IMG/VR virus record: IMGVR_UViG_3300046001_002667
Coordinates: 1-29,945 of that record
Source: a virus
DNA length: 29,945 nucleotides
Strand: one strand, 5' to 3'
Part shown: positions 18,658-27,229 of the stretch, one piece after another
Numbering within the stretch: the stretch's first letter is position 1
Layout of the letters: every line of letters begins with the position of its first letter
Notes under the pieces: generated by a model
Seen by the model: the letters and a program-made list of their open reading frames with translations, nothing else
The model's database searches: none
Told to the model about the DNA's origin: nothing
Position numbers and translations under genes: made by a program

Positions 18658-19014
18658 CTATTCTGCCTCTTCCTGGCGAACTCTGCGCCGGTAGTGCATC
18701 TGTCCGTGGCACAGATAACACAACACCTGGACATCCTCCATTTGTTCGCCACCCAATCGAATGTAGGTCAGGTGATGGACATCGAGCTTGTATCCATCCT
18801 CCTGACGCTTCCCACACTGCTCACATGTCCGACCGGACCGCTCGAGTGCTTTGGTCCGAATATCCTGCCATCGCTGAGATCGCATGTACTTGCGACGATA
18901 GTCTCGCCATGTCTCATCGATGACCGCGCTGGAGGCGCCTATGGCCTTCAGGAGAGAGTAAGTGTTCGCCCATGGCTTCGCCATGACCGACGTTATGATT
19001 TTGTCTGTGTCCAC
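18658..19014 (-). CDS. HNH endonuclease next to the terminase genes
   Basis: At 118 residues, this is an HNH nuclease with zinc ligands CEQC (64-67) and CYLCHGQMH (99-107) and the HH of the catalytic motif at 80-81 (LDVHHLTYIR). The GTG at 19014 has AAGGA 9 nt upstream and is the preferred start; ATG at 18984 is the alternative. HNH proteins encoded beside terL in HK97-like phages assist packaging-site cleavage, so a cos-type mechanism is plausible. It resembles the C-terminal half of the plus-strand HNH protein at 27226-27888, including the ARW/QRW, HxTYxR and EQMxD positions. Confidence 0.9.
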   Translation of the reverse strand: MDTDKIITSVMAKPWANTYSLLKAIGASSAVIDETWRDYRRKYMRSQRWQDIRTKALERSGRTCEQCGKRQEDGYKLDVHHLTYIRLGGEQMEDVQVLCYLCHGQMHYRRRVRQEEAE

Positions 19015-19241
19015 TTGATTTCGTCCTTGACCGGATGAAACTCACCCCACATCCAATCGTCCGCGTACAACGATTCTGGATCGAGTGTGAGGCCCTGTAG
19101 AGTCTTTGATTCAGTGTCTGACGTGTGCATCACGAATGCCTCGTATAGATCGACATACCGAATATGGACATCATGGTCAAAACATGCTCGAGTGATTGGT
19201 TTGCCATTCATCAATGGCTCGATAACTTCTGCGAACTTCAT
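18993..19241 (-). CDS. DUF2829 / Tad2-like small protein (third of three)
   Basis: The 82-residue protein starts MKFAEVIEPLMNGKPITRACF and ends its core with LYADDWMWGEF. This matches the DUF2829 plan of an N-terminal F-x-E-x(5)-G-x(3)-R helix and strand and a C-terminal A-x-DW. The ATG at 19241 overlaps the stop of the previous gene (ATGA), with GGGAGG upstream. Tad2, the characterised member, binds cyclic ADP-ribose-type signals and blocks the Thoeris defence. Whether this divergent copy binds a nucleotide is unknown. It lies between another copy and the HNH gene in one translational chain. Confidence 0.65.
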   Translation of the reverse strand: MKFAEVIEPLMNGKPITRACFDHDVHIRYVDLYEAFVMHTSDTESKTLQGLTLDPESLYADDWMWGEFHPVKDEIKWTQTKS

Positions 19242-19489
19242 TCGAATACCTCCCAATCGTCTCGCAAAAACAAAGATGCATCTACAAAGTTGCCGTACTC
19301 ATAAGTTGACGGGTTGGTAATTACTCGTTCACCTGTTGTGCTTAACCAGACCATCTCCGGAACAAAACGAACAAACTCACAAACCTGAACGTAAAACTCT
19401 TCTTCGGAATCTACATCCATTTTCCTAATGTCAGGAATCGTCAATTTTTTGCCATCCAATAGAGCCTGCAATGCTTCATGACCGGTCAT
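19238..19489 (-). CDS. DUF2829 / Tad2-like small protein (second of three)
   Basis: At 83 residues, it runs from MTGHEALQALLDGKKLTI to FLRDDWEVFE, again the helix with G-K-K and the final DW motif of DUF2829-type proteins. The middle part is longer and lacks the usual Arg after GKK, having an Ile-Pro instead, so the signal pocket may differ. The ATG at 19489 overlaps the upstream stop (ATGA); a longer frame to 19558 exists but would sit wholly inside the previous gene. By eye the gene is lower in GC than its neighbours, suggesting a separate origin. Confidence 0.6.
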   Translation of the reverse strand: MTGHEALQALLDGKKLTIPDIRKMDVDSEEEFYVQVCEFVRFVPEMVWLSTTGERVITNPSTYEYGNFVDASLFLRDDWEVFE

Positions 19490-20049
19490 TCGACCACCGT
19501 CCAATCTCGCGCCAGGACATCGGTCCCTGTCAGCGTCGCGAATCCCTTCGAGATCCATTGGTTGCTCCCAGTGAGCTCATAACGCATCAGCGCACCTTCG
19601 ACGAGTCTTAGTTTCCAGCGTGCTCCATCACGCTGCACAGCTGCACCAGCGCGAATCGATTCCATGATGGTGTCGAATGTCTTACGCGTATAGCCGACAT
19701 TCACACCTTTTCCGCAGATCAGGAAATAATCGACGCGAAGCGATGGCTCAGTCGATAACCACTTATTGAAGCGTCGTGTGTCGATGCCATGTGATGCAAC
19801 AGCCTCGCGACGGTCGATTCCCTGGACAACCATGTCTGCGACTTTGGCGACGATGTCTCTCTTCTGGTCGAGCGTGTGCATGATGTCTCGTGGTGTCGAT
19901 TCGCCACCATGACCAGCTTCGTTCAGCCACTTCGAGATGATGGCTCGTGGCATTCCGATTTGAGCTGCTGATTTGCTGATGCTGTGTCCTTCAGCCATCA
20001 GTGCGATAACCTTCGCCAGCATCTCAGCCTTCTGTTCCTTTTTGTACAT
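19486..20049 (-). CDS. Double helix-turn-helix protein fused to a DUF2829-like domain
   Basis: At 187 residues, it shows two homeodomain-like helix-turn-helix units: residues about 12-42 (ALMAEGHSISKSAAQIGMPR) and about 65-95 (QGIDRREAVASHGIDTRRF). The C-terminal 60 residues read TFDTIMESIRAGAAVQRDG and, after a short divergent part, TDVLARDWTVVE, the DUF2829 plan. The ATG at 20049 has AAGGGG upstream; the same AAGGGGTAAA layout precedes the primase gene. A 33-bp near-perfect inverted repeat stands 20 nt upstream and could be its operator or a terminator. The combination suggests a DNA-binding protein with a small-molecule sensor domain. I know of no described example, so this is inference. 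Confidence 0.7.
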   Translation of the reverse strand: MYKKEQKAEMLAKVIALMAEGHSISKSAAQIGMPRAIISKWLNEAGHGGESTPRDIMHTLDQKRDIVAKVADMVVQGIDRREAVASHGIDTRRFNKWLSTEPSLRVDYFLICGKGVNVGYTRKTFDTIMESIRAGAAVQRDGARWKLRLVEGALMRYELTGSNQWISKGFATLTGTDVLARDWTVVE

Positions 20050-20065: not shown

Positions 20066-20102
20066 AAAACACCAGGCACATTCGGCGGGAATGTACCTGG
20101 TG
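20066..20102 (-). terminator. Inverted repeat before the HTH-DUF2829 gene: terminator or operator
   Basis: CACCAGG, one mismatch, ACATTC, a 5-nt loop, GAATGT, one mismatch and CCTGGTG form a near-perfect hairpin between the SSB stop and the next gene's start. On the minus strand it is followed by TTTT, as in an intrinsic terminator separating replication from late genes. As double-stranded DNA it could equally be an operator for the helix-turn-helix protein that follows. Confidence 0.7.
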
Positions 20103-20128
20103 CGACAGCGAGTGTGAAAGCGCAGAAG

Positions 20129-20629
20129 TTACTCGCTGGCGTCTTCACCGAATGGATCTTCGATGTCGTCGGTCTTGATGGTTGGCTGTGCGATCTTCGT
20201 GAGTTTCTTCTTTGCACTCACTGGAGCGACCGACACGATGGCATTCGTCATGTTGCCGCGTGTGTTCAGTTTGGCGTCGACTGTGACCATCCACTGCTTT
20301 GCGAGCATGTCGTCAACGTCGAGCTGGTGAAACTCAGCCTGTGTCAGGCGGCGTCCGAGCATACCGTCGAGAAGCACTGTGAGTGCTTGGCGGTCGTTGC
20401 CGTATCCCTGACGCGTGTACTTGAAGAAGCGGTAAGCGTTACCAGCCGAGTCGCCATACTCTGTCGTTTCGAAGGTGAACTTAAAGTTCGGAAGCATGAC
20501 GTTTGGGTCATCGTACGATGGACGGTCGACCGACTCGAGGTTCGCCAAACGACAGACGTATGCACCTGCTGGTGCTGCTTCAAATTGTGAGGACCCGTCA
20601 CTGAAGGACGCGTTAGAAAAGAAACCCAT
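20129..20629 (-). CDS. Single-stranded DNA-binding-like protein
   Basis: This 166-residue protein starts MGFFSNASFSDGSSQFEA and then has PAGAYVCRLANLESV, a strand pattern (LPNFKFTFETTEYGDSA) and LDGMLGRRLTQAEFHQLDVDDMLAKQW. The layout resembles phage SSB-like (DUF669-type) OB-fold proteins. A basic linker (KKKLTKIA) and an acidic tail DDIEDPFGEDASE close it, as in SSBs that recruit partners by an acidic tip. AGGAG lies 9 nt before the ATG. A strong promoter candidate lies about 90 nt upstream. Confidence 0.75.
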   Translation of the reverse strand: MGFFSNASFSDGSSQFEAAPAGAYVCRLANLESVDRPSYDDPNVMLPNFKFTFETTEYGDSAGNAYRFFKYTRQGYGNDRQALTVLLDGMLGRRLTQAEFHQLDVDDMLAKQWMVTVDAKLNTRGNMTNAIVSVAPVSAKKKLTKIAQPTIKTDDIEDPFGEDASE

Positions 20630-20856: not shown

Positions 20857-20885
20857 AGGGGGGTTTCCAAAGGGGGGATTTTCCT

Positions 20886-20950
20886 GACCTGTTCCCGTTT
20901 TCTTATCCTTAAGGGCGGAACAGGTCGGGAACAGGTCACGGGAACAGGTC
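20886..20950. repeat. Iteron-like repeats GGAACAGGTC (three direct, one inverted)
   Basis: Exact copies stand at 20917-20926, 20928-20937 and 20941-20950, with an inverted copy at 20886-20895. The direct copies start 11 and 13 bp apart, about one helical turn, so proteins bound to them would lie on one face. This is typical of iterons at replication origins. The set ends 6 bp after the helicase stop. Confidence 0.75.
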
Positions 20951-20956
20951 AAACGC

Positions 20957-23383: not shown

Positions 23384-23719
23384 ATACTGGCATGTGGCTT
23401 CGACTGCTTCCTCCCACGAGTAAGCGACGAACCAGAGGTAAGCATCACCGACAGACTCACGGAAGGAAACTTGTCCTGGCGTGAGTTTGTTTTTGCCTGC
23501 CTTCATCTCGATCCACATTCCACAGTGCTGTCCCATCTGGACCGGAATAAAGATGTCCCAGACGCCAGCCTTGAGGCCTTCAGACTTCAAACGACCGGCA
23601 GTAGCCTTGCTTCGGTATCCACCGTTTGGAATGGCGTGGATAGTGTCAAGGCGTGGATGTCGTCCACCCATCACTCGGCACCAGTTGAAAAACGCAATCT
23701 GATGTTCTGATTCTGTCAA
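23357..23719 (-). CDS. VRR-NUC nuclease
   Basis: At 120 residues, this is a stand-alone VRR-NUC (PD-(D/E)xK) domain. It shows HAIPNGGYRSKATAGRLKSE, then GLKAGVWDIFIP with D55, and MWIEMKAGKNKLTPGQVSF with E71, K73 and Q83. These are the metal-binding and catalytic positions of the family. The start is a TTG at 23719 that overlaps the sigma factor stop (TTGA). Viral VRR-NUC proteins cut branched DNA such as junctions, so a role in recombination or packaging-ready DNA is likely. Confidence 0.9.
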   Translation of the reverse strand: MTESEHQIAFFNWCRVMGGRHPRLDTIHAIPNGGYRSKATAGRLKSEGLKAGVWDIFIPVQMGQHCGMWIEMKAGKNKLTPGQVSFRESVGDAYLWFVAYSWEEAVEATCQYLGIQSGMS

Positions 23720-24624
23720 AGTTCTATTCCTTCCAAAGTCTCGAAAAGCACCTCCGCTTCAGGCAGTCCACGAAGTTTCTCGAGCGCTCGCGACTGTATC
23801 TGCCTGATTCGCTCGCGTGAATATCCGACCAGGAGACCAACGTCCTCGAGCGAGCGTCCATCGATGAGACCATCGAATCCGAAGCGTAGCCGGATGCACG
23901 CCATCTCGCGGTCCGTCAGATGTTCCATCAGTTTGTACAGCTGCGCGTAGAGTGCTTCGCGGTCGAGAGCATCACCAGGCTGAGGAGTATCGGTGGCCAC
24001 GTATTCGCTGAAACTCTGACCGTATGCGTTCGGTTCATCGAGCGACTTGATGTCCACACGCTCCATCGAGGTGATGTCAGACAGATACTGGACGTCGAGA
24101 GTTTTGAGCTGATGGCGGAGATACTTCGGAAACTCATCGATGCGCGACTGTATCCACTCGAGCAGTTCCGGCATCGATGGCGATTCACCGTGTTTGAGGA
24201 CGTATGCCTGGCGCGAGATGCGGATGTGCGTGATCTTGGCAATGACGTGTGATGGTAGTCGAATCTCGCGACCACGATTCTCGACTCCTCGACCGATGGC
24301 CTGTCGAATCCAGTTCGTGGCATACGTGCTGAATCTGTAGCCCTTGTTCGGGTCGTACCGCTGAATGGCGTGATGTAGTCCGAGCATCCCGTCAGTCATC
24401 ATGTCTTCGTGAGTGCATCCACGGCCCTTGAAGCGTTTCGCGATGATGGAGATCAGGCGCTGGTTGTACGTCATCAGTTCTTCTGTCGCACGCTTGATGT
24501 CTCGCTCGGTCCCTGCCTGCACCATGCGACCTAAGAAAAACTCCTCCTGTGGAAGGAGGAGTTCTTGACCACTGGCGAGTCTACTGGAGCGGTATTGGCT
24601 CCATGTGTCGATGCGCTTAGTCAC
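23716..24624 (-). CDS. Sigma-70 family RNA polymerase sigma factor
   Basis: The 302-residue protein resembles primary or group 2 sigma factors. Region 2 (about residues 48-125) has NQRLISIIAKRF, RYDPNKGYRFSTYATNWIRQAI and REIRLPSHV. Region 3 follows, with a helical insert up to 230. Region 4 (about 233-290) has LTDREMACIRLRFGF, then SLEDVGLLVGYSRERIRQIQ. The start GTG at 24624 overlaps the upstream gene's stop by about 8 nt; an ATG at 24525, preceded by AGG, is an internal alternative. A phage with a full sigma factor can redirect host polymerase to late or middle promoters. Codons 20-29 carry a terminator-like hairpin. Confidence 0.9.
   Translation of the reverse strand: MTKRIDTWSQYRSSRLASGQELLLPQEEFFLGRMVQAGTERDIKRATEELMTYNQRLISIIAKRFKGRGCTHEDMMTDGMLGLHHAIQRYDPNKGYRFSTYATNWIRQAIGRGVENRGREIRLPSHVIAKITHIRISRQAYVLKHGESPSMPELLEWIQSRIDEFPKYLRHQLKTLDVQYLSDITSMERVDIKSLDEPNAYGQSFSEYVATDTPQPGDALDREALYAQLYKLMEHLTDREMACIRLRFGFDGLIDGRSLEDVGLLVGYSRERIRQIQSRALEKLRGLPEAEVLFETLEGIEL
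24533..24563 (-). promoter_or_regulatory. Terminator-like hairpin inside the sigma gene
   Basis: On the minus strand AACTCCTCC pairs with GGAGGAGTT across a 7-nt loop, and the right arm runs into TTTTTCTT. The left arm is an anti-Shine-Dalgarno sequence and the right arm a Shine-Dalgarno sequence, 23-29 nt before the internal ATG at 24525. It could stop transcription early, or hide a ribosome site. It also encodes QELLLPQEEFF. Confidence 0.6.
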
Positions 24625-24877
24625 GAGCGGCCATCGCCTGATGTGCTTTGTGGTCTGCGCTGTTTGGTGTGTTCCAGCTGTGAGCCATCGCACACGCCAT
24701 CCACGTAAACATCACGACCAGGACGAATCCTCCGAGTGTCTGGATGCGTCGCTGTGTCTTCTTCCGGCGCTCACGCTTGAGCTCACGCTGGGAGCAGATT
24801 GTGCAGATGCGATGACCACGGCCATAAGGCACAGCGTTCGGGCGGTTGCATTCGATGCAGGTTACTTTGATGTCCAT
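24617..24877 (-). CDS. Zinc-ribbon membrane protein
   Basis: At 86 residues, it has a zinc ribbon at the N-terminus with CIEC (C7, C10) and CTIC (C25, C28). A basic stretch (KRERRKKTQRR) and one membrane segment at about residues 47-66 follow. The topology would put the zinc ribbon in the cytoplasm by the positive-inside rule. AGGAATAGGA precedes the ATG. It lies between the HTH and sigma genes. Function is unknown. Confidence 0.8.
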   Translation of the reverse strand: MDIKVTCIECNRPNAVPYGRGHRICTICSQRELKRERRKKTQRRIQTLGGFVLVVMFTWMACAMAHSWNTPNSADHKAHQAMAARD

Positions 24878-25672: not shown

Positions 25673-26220
25673 TGACAATGTCGGAGACAATCGGTGCAAT
25701 CGCGCCGGCGCTTGTGAAGGCACAGGCGGAAATCAAACCAATCGTGAAGGATTCGACGAATCCAGCGTTTCGCTCGAAGTACACTTCACTCGATGCCATC
25801 ATGGAGGTCGTTCGACCAGTGATGGCGAAACATGGTCTGTTCGTCGTTCAGTCGGTGCTGGACACCATCGACGGAGAGCACAGCACCAGCATCACCGTCG
25901 AGAGCCGTGTGATTCACAGCTCAGGTGAATGGATTGCTGGTGTCGTGCAGGTTCCGGTGATGCAACAGACATCGCACGGATTCGGGTCAGCACTCTCGTA
26001 TGGTCGACGTTACAGCCTCAGTGCGCTCCTATCGCTCGCATCTGACGAGGATGACGATGGCAATGGTGCGATAGGCCAACAGCCACAAGCACGGCCACAA
26101 ATCAAGCCAGGACCGCCACAGACCACGACGTTGAAGAAACTCGCACCACAGGCGAAACCGATACCTGGTTATCACAACGGTTCACACTTTGTTATCGGTG
26201 AAGAGGACCCGAACGCATGA
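25672..26220 (+). CDS. ERF-family single-strand annealing protein
   Basis: At 182 residues, it has the ERF core in the first 130: KDSTNPAFRSKYTSLDAIME, VVRPVMAKHGL and SAYSYGRRY-like FGSALSYGRRYSLSALLSLASDEDDDG. The C-terminal part is Pro- and Gln-rich and probably disordered. The ATG at 25672 overlaps the previous stop; ATG at 25678 is also possible. ERF proteins anneal complementary single strands and support recombination-dependent replication, which matches the nearby VRR-NUC and SSB-like proteins. Confidence 0.93.
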   Translation: MTMSETIGAIAPALVKAQAEIKPIVKDSTNPAFRSKYTSLDAIMEVVRPVMAKHGLFVVQSVLDTIDGEHSTSITVESRVIHSSGEWIAGVVQVPVMQQTSHGFGSALSYGRRYSLSALLSLASDEDDDGNGAIGQQPQARPQIKPGPPQTTTLKKLAPQAKPIPGYHNGSHFVIGEEDPNA

Positions 26221-26603
26221 CATTTCCGACTGTTCTCTTCACTCACTTTTTAGCCGACTTTGTTTATCAATCTCGTGAGATTGCAACGACGAAGTCAAGT
26301 AACAACATCTCGCTACTCAAGCACGTCGGCATTTATGCCGGCGTGTTTGGAATCGCGACATCTGTAGATATTGGATTTGCATTCTTTGGATGGCCTGACA
26401 AGTATAAAGCCAGTATCGGCAAACAAATCGCATTCATCATCTTCAATGTCGTCATGCACTTTGTGACTGATTACTTTACGAGCCGTGCAAGCACTAAAGC
26501 ATATAAAGCCGGCGATCTACATCGATTCTGGTGCATCATTGGATTTGACCAGATGATTCACGCCACAACACTCTACTGGTCATGGAAGGCAATGACGACA
26601 TGA
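26217..26603 (+). CDS. DUF3307 membrane protein
   Basis: This 128-residue protein follows the DUF3307 pattern: FTHFLADFVYQSREIA, then LLKHVGIYAG, an NVVMHFVTDYFTSR helix and FDQMIHATTLYWSW. The H-x(2)-ADF, H-x(4)-D and DQ-x(2)-H residues are spaced like metal or catalytic ligands. About three membrane segments are likely. Its ATG overlaps the ERF stop, and its stop overlaps the ThyX start (ATGA). Function is unknown. The gene is lower in GC than ERF. Confidence 0.85.
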   Translation: MTFPTVLFTHFLADFVYQSREIATTKSSNNISLLKHVGIYAGVFGIATSVDIGFAFFGWPDKYKASIGKQIAFIIFNVVMHFVTDYFTSRASTKAYKAGDLHRFWCIIGFDQMIHATTLYWSWKAMTT

Positions 26604-27229
26604 CGAAACTTGTATGGATAACGCCCGATGCCGAAAAGGTCATCGGGTATTGCGCTCGAGTCTCAAACCCGGGAAACCAGGACAATCCGGATGTCACCAG
26701 GTTGCTTCGGTATTGTGTCGGTCATGGACACTGGTCAATATTTGAAATGGCCAGCATGTGTGTCGAGATAAAAACCACGAGGGCGATTGCAGCTCAGATT
26801 CTTCGACATCGGTCGTTCTCGTTTCAGGAGTTCAGTCAACGATACGCCACCGTGGTCGAGGACATCGATGTCCCAGAGATGCGCCTTGCTGGCTCCTACA
26901 ATCGGCAATCCAGCCTGCCATTACCTGCGATGGAGGAACTGACCAAAGAACAGCAGGACGCGCTGTATTTGGTCAATAGCACCATCGAGTTCGCGACCGA
27001 CGTGTATCGCGATCTGTTAAAGAACGGCATGGCTGCGGAGACTGCTCGCATGGTCCTACCGCTTTGTACTCCGACCACGATGTACATGAGTGGAAGCATT
27101 CGCTCGTGGATTCATTATGTGCAGTTACGAACGCGCCAGGACACACAGCTCGAGCATCGTGACATCGCGCAAAGCATCCAGAACATCATGCTGGAACATC
27201 TGCCAATAACGATGGAGGCGCTCGGTTGA
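26600..27229 (+). CDS. thyX: Flavin-dependent thymidylate synthase
   Basis: The 209-residue protein has the ThyX signature RHRSFSFQEFSQRY (residues 69-82), an H-x-S-x-x-E site (HWSIFE, 44-49) and a C-terminal RTRQDTQLEHRDIA helix with the usual QxE pattern. It methylates dUMP to dTMP with FAD and NADPH. That raises the dTTP pool for replication, for which the phage depends on the host polymerase. I chose the ATG at 26600 because it overlaps the previous stop (ATGA); an ATG at 26582 adds six residues. Confidence 0.96.
   Translation: MTKLVWITPDAEKVIGYCARVSNPGNQDNPDVTRLLRYCVGHGHWSIFEMASMCVEIKTTRAIAAQILRHRSFSFQEFSQRYATVVEDIDVPEMRLAGSYNRQSSLPLPAMEELTKEQQDALYLVNSTIEFATDVYRDLLKNGMAAETARMVLPLCTPTTMYMSGSIRSWIHYVQLRTRQDTQLEHRDIAQSIQNIMLEHLPITMEALG

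Follow-up and report, generated by a model that had tools for sequence, protein, structure and literature searches.

Coupled Tad2-like genes form a variable array, probably anti-defensive, in a group of phages

Why would a phage carry, one after another, three genes for divergent versions of what appears to be a single small domain? Tad2 (Thoeris anti-defence 2; Pfam family PF11195), known as a phage protein that mops up signalling molecules of bacterial immunity, includes SPO1 Gp34.65, ModTad2 and SptTad2. A preliminary description of a virus DNA record had proposed that three divergent DUF2829/Tad2-like domains are encoded there in one coupled gene chain. We analyzed the whole record, 29,945 bases from a small environmental phage, referred to below as the window, and found that profile and fold evidence bears this proposal out.

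The three genes, here called A, B and C, are consecutive on the minus strand. Gene A (19486-20049) encodes 187 amino acids, with two helix-turn-helix (HTH) domains followed by a Tad2-like domain. Gene B (19238-19489) encodes a Tad2-fold protein of 83 amino acids, and gene C (18993-19241) encodes 82 amino acids, with a Tad2-like domain (residues 1-64) and a conserved C-terminal tail. The genes are joined by ATGA overlaps, exactly as had been described: the stop codon of A overlaps the start codon of B at 19486-19489, and the stop codon of B overlaps the start codon of C at 19238-19241 (both on the minus strand). These junctions are kept in relatives. The acidic-aromatic motifs noted at the ends of the domains are also present, as LARDWTVVE in A, LRDDWEVFE in B and YADDWMWG in C. 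That of C is not terminal; approximately 17 more tail residues follow it. The start of each domain has the helix, then Gly and a basic or polar strand, that had been noted (helix followed by Gly/Lys and strand: FDTIMESIRAGAAVQRD in A, GHEALQALLDGKKLTI in B and FAEVIEPLMNGKPITR in C), and the AlphaFold2 models for A and B agree. All three genes are under purifying selection, with dN/dS of ~0.06-0.16 for A, 0.04-0.20 for C and 0.2-0.46 for B.

We compared each protein to PF11195, which has a curated Pfam cut-off of 25 bits. No protein in the window reaches this value: C scores 18.1 (E=0.0039 by itself), the domain of A scores 17.1, and B has no direct Pfam match. Because all three fall under the cut-off, we use the term Tad2-like on grounds of homology and fold, and do not count A, B and C as curated members of the family. 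Among their relatives, the slot insert of locus L016 (28.7) and L150 (25.8) are above the cut-off. The PF11195 alignments of C and A cover nearly the whole model. The A domain alone (the last 63 residues) aligns in register to positions 2-73 of 73 (E=0.0083). In the alignment of the C family, 26 of 26 members match PF11195, the best at 2.9e-7. One homologue of B, 51% identical to it, matches PF11195 at 0.013, and another, 28% identical, is above the cut-off.

We also used profiles from which one family at a time had been left out, with reversed or shuffled ORFs as decoys. The B-free profile recovered the B of the window at E=1.8e-4 and the C-free profile recovered C at 1.4e-7, in both cases among 12,760 ORFs; decoys reached 0.12 at best. 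On full ORFs the A-free profile was weak (best 0.07; window A 3.6), and it was clear only at the domain level, where 82 of 82 A-domain homologues scored at least 8 bits compared to 2 of 1,640 shuffles. A relation to DUF2829 was therefore found for all three proteins by the leave-out profiles, and for C and A also directly.

Known structures gave a similar result. A profile that pooled 18 array members, with B left out, found the Tad2 structures 8V3E (1.1e-8), 9EIB (1.1e-8), 8WJD (1.1e-6) and 8SME (7.3e-6). Its best match in the PDB was 8KBI (4.1e-9), annotated as an inhibitor of type II CRISPR-Cas, and it also found AcrIIA7 (9KZR, 4.8e-7), so that the range over Tad2 and AcrIIA7 structures was 4e-9 to 9e-6. 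The AlphaFold2 model of B had a pLDDT of 91.6. When it was used to search the PDB with Foldseek, ranks 1-8 were all Tad2 structures (probability 0.97-1.00), with nothing credible below them. The B-only profile, the C-family profile and C alone found no Tad2 among PDB sequences. The links of B and C to Tad2 rest for this reason on intermediate homologues, Pfam and folds, and the membership of C in the Tad2-like family rests on profiles. Two features set these proteins apart from other members. The domain of C is ~64 amino acids, shorter than known Tad2 (88-90), and B is without the R-x-x-W that most other members carry in their first loop. Because this motif is missing, the pocket of B may be altered or lost.

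Gene A fuses an HTH DNA-binding domain to an anti-defence-type domain, an architecture of the Aca/AcrIIA15 type. PF13384 matches the N-terminal ~112 residues in two stretches (E=5.5e-7, Pfam). Together with the helices of the model, these matches place the two HTH domains at about residues 4-44 and 60-100 (19750-20040, minus strand). The Tad2-like domain, residues 125-187 (19489-19677, minus strand), ends in ARDWTVVE. The AlphaFold2 model of A has two HTH domains and then the order helix-four strands-helix-strand. In a Foldseek search of a viral library with this model, the top named matches were Tad2-like proteins; a fold search of the PDB with full-length A gave poor HTH-type matches only. 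The predicted folds of the A domain and of B, each taken alone, are thus both Tad2-like, and neither is a differing fold.

The preliminary description took three genes as the arrangement. There are indeed three in the window, but comparison to relatives indicates a conserved core of A and C, with B as one of several exchangeable cassettes. Among 77 distinct related loci, 62 have two Tad2-like genes, 14 have three and one has four. A and C occur together in every evaluable related locus, and in related contigs they mostly abut, through ATGA or an 11-nt overlap. The slot between A and C in these contigs holds zero, one or two genes, mostly Tad2-like: B types, C-type paralogues (beginning MKFEH... 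or MKFEN...), a further Tad2-like type (L029), or two together (L056). In two loci (L026:4721-5014 and L027) the slot holds a 97-aa ORF, MIYEPGDNEF..., that has no Tad2, Pfam or NCBIfam match and is apparently unrelated cargo.

B is also found in an otherwise unrelated phage (L071) that is without A or C. The DNA homology of the B region there (89% identity) begins and ends at the ATGA junctions. One related locus (L028) has a clean A-C junction and no B. The homology ending at the junctions and this clean junction show B to be a mobile cassette in an ATGA-bounded slot.

The junctions appear suited to stacking, with DWEV codons supplying a candidate ribosome-binding site. The candidate Shine-Dalgarno sequence for C, GGGAGG (19249-19254, minus strand), is 7 nt before the C ATG and is formed by the W-E-V codons of the terminal DWEV motif of B. 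Of 29 coupled genes, 23 use GAG for the Glu of the terminal W-E, compared to 140 of 415 other Glu codons; the genes are related to one another, so the p-value is no more than indicative. The leader of A, between the SSB-like gene and A, has a hairpin and a T-run (20069-20103, minus strand). The 14-nt inverted repeat is conserved in the leaders of relatives, where changes keep the pairing. This hairpin could be an intrinsic terminator or attenuator, or an operator for the HTH protein; the repeat carries the T-run, and fits a terminator as well as an operator.

The array is downstream of the SSB-like gene (20129-20629) and upstream of an HNH gene (18658-19014), a gene for a TerS-like HTH protein, TerL and portal. 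The SSB-like assignment was made from the sequence, with no Pfam assignment for this gene. The stretch that separates the AAA_25 helicase gene from the SSB-like gene holds direct and inverted copies of CGGGAACAGGTCA (20885-20951), which resemble operator sites or the iterons of a replication origin. Farther away, the phage encodes a sigma factor of the sigma-70 type that contains regions 2 and 4 (23716-24693, minus strand) and that might control late transcription or that of the array.

Using B-type sequences as queries, we found a second phage group, with 37 loci. Here Tad2-like genes form clusters of up to seven, which include an HTH-Tad2 gene with one HTH, and thyX stands among these genes. 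A count using Pfam only, over 30 records of this group, agrees, with up to six matches per record. The gene swapping among relatives and the presence of up to seven genes per cluster suggest an exchangeable anti-defence toolkit. One ORF of 182 amino acids (L168:4408-4956) has two Tad2-like domains and is possibly a tandem fusion. The tail motif of C, G-x-FHPVK(D/N)E-x-x-W (18996-19049, minus strand), is shared with a paralogue of this second group (L154:6047-6283). There is also a second variable site, just before thyX, which in close relatives (L191-L196) is occupied by a Tad2-like gene or by two of them. In the window a DUF3307 gene takes this place (26217-26603, plus strand), beside thyX (26582-27229). 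No close relatives were found among annotated phages, NCBIfam has no model for the array proteins, and neither of two scans of bacterial and archaeal genomes turned up a relative. For lack of relatives in those genomes, we do not name a host.

What do these genes do? On balance we favor, with a modest degree of confidence, an anti-defence array of modular build, made up of sponges for nucleotide signals and headed by a DNA-binding Tad2 fusion, with A and C as its core and B as a mobile part. What the data show is that the proteins share a fold and are homologous, that the genes are coupled and under purifying selection, that genes come and go at exact junctions, and that B occurs in a phage otherwise unrelated. 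Ligand binding, the specificity for signals, regulation by A and the make-up of any oligomers are its putative parts. A, with its HTH and Tad2-like domains, and C would be the conserved core of the translationally coupled array. The stand-alone Tad2-like proteins would capture and sequester the nucleotides that serve the host as immune signals. Their divergent pockets would fit different signals, and the slot would turn over with the defences met by each lineage. A would bind DNA and control the array, by repressing itself or as a sensor with its DNA binding altered by ligand or by Tad2 partners. The divergence of the copies, their exact exchange and their rapid turnover are in keeping with a set of sponges that follows the host signals as these change.

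Published work provides precedents for several of these steps. Tad2 from SPO1 binds gcADPR and MoTad2 binds His-ADPR (PMC13299392), and Tad2 homologues also bind cyclic dinucleotides (PMC12043709). The suggestion made earlier, that the copies might act on distinct signals or form mixed complexes, would fit with this diversity of ligands. The anti-defence protein AcrIIA15 represses transcription of its own gene (PMC10901769). It is also conceivable, although we think it unlikely, that the locus represents a new type of phage counter-defence, in which diversified Tad2-fold sponges, each tuned to a different nucleotide immune signal, make up an expandable array that regulates itself. Phages would swap cassettes at ATGA junctions, the terminal DWEV codons of one cassette would double as the ribosome-binding site of the next, and the HTH-Tad2 fusion would itself sense the immune signal and turn the array on.

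Several findings weigh against the sponge reading: no protein of the window reaches the PF11195 cut-off, B is without R-x-x-W, C is short, and the family includes the anti-CRISPR AcrIIA7. One alternative is that the resemblance to Tad2 is due to chance and that A, B and C are unrelated small phage proteins. The absence of a direct Pfam match for B, the failure of the B-only profile to find Tad2 in the PDB and the weak result of shallow profile-profile comparisons among the A, B and C families would be in keeping with this. However, the leave-out profiles, the intermediate homologues and the fold searches all concur, and chance resemblance was rejected on the strength of the reversed and shuffled ORFs and the leave-one-family-out profiles. 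This alternative is nearly excluded, and we give it very little credence. The proteins could be AcrIIA7-like inhibitors of CRISPR-Cas or of another protein target, and not nucleotide sponges. AcrIIA7 has a DUF2829 domain (PMC6739104), and the best PDB match of the pooled profile was the CRISPR-Cas inhibitor 8KBI, with AcrIIA7 itself also found. The same profile matched four sets of Tad2 structures just as well, though, and AcrIIA7 homologues are hardly tied to type II-A self-targeting genomes (PMC6739104); we regard inhibition of a protein target as quite improbable.

The constant presence of A and C could also mean a core phage function. The Tad2-like proteins might be housekeeping proteins that sense or buffer nucleotides in replication, or cofactors of replication or packaging, with A as a transcription or packaging factor. 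Consistent with this, A and C are in every evaluable related locus, the core lies between the SSB-like and helicase genes and the HNH, TerS-like and TerL genes, and both the second group and the second site have Tad2-like genes next to thyX. On the other hand, the non-core copies differ in number and sequence between close relatives, the slot can be empty, and the nearest characterized proteins are anti-defence proteins. A housekeeping role is possible but seems to us doubtful. The co-occurrence and translational coupling of A and C would also be explained if the proteins worked mainly as one mixed complex, an obligate hetero-oligomer of A and C in which slot proteins shift the specificity and no protein by itself acts as a sponge. 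In the tetramer of known Tad2, the pockets are built from two protomers (PMC12043709). The phage that has B without A or C argues against this, and we consider such a complex rather improbable.

If the sponge reading is correct, the arrays would be useful beyond this phage. In the accessible literature, Tad2 homologues with different signals are described one at a time. Up to seven stacked and swapped Tad2-like genes would be a natural library of the host signals of one habitat, the arrays supply many sequences for mapping specificity on the Tad2 fold, and the HTH-Tad2 fusion offers a direct test of the sponge fold as a signal-responsive regulator. The Tad2 domain family and anti-defence islands are already known (PMC11722364). 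We found no earlier description of Tad2-like cassette arrays or of an HTH-Tad2 fusion in the accessible literature; key subscription papers were beyond our reach.

The array resembles several known systems and differs from each. It shares a homologous domain with Tad2, as seen in PDB ranks 1-8 for the B model and in the pooled profile (1e-8 to 9e-6). Unlike Tad2, it has several diverged, mostly shorter, coupled copies, one of them fused to HTH and all three below the Pfam cut-off. AcrIIA7 belongs to the same domain family (PMC6739104); nothing seen here points to CRISPR, and inhibition of Cas9 by the array proteins is hypothetical. AcrIIA15 and the HTH-containing Aca (anti-CRISPR-associated) repressors pair a DNA-binding domain with an anti-defence domain, either by fusion or by being encoded together (PMC10901769, PMC9410906), and A is alike in this. 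Their anti-defence domain is unrelated to that of A, and autorepression by A is putative. CPT_Parlo_009 of Serratia phage Parlo (239 aa) has a C-terminal Tad2-like domain that is over the cut-off (44.3 bits); in contrast to A, it has no Pfam HTH in its N-terminal part. Finally, phage anti-defence islands such as the acb4 region of SPO1 are also clusters of small, variable anti-defence genes (PMC11722364). These islands mix unrelated families, whereas the array described here repeats one fold, exchanged at ATGA junctions.
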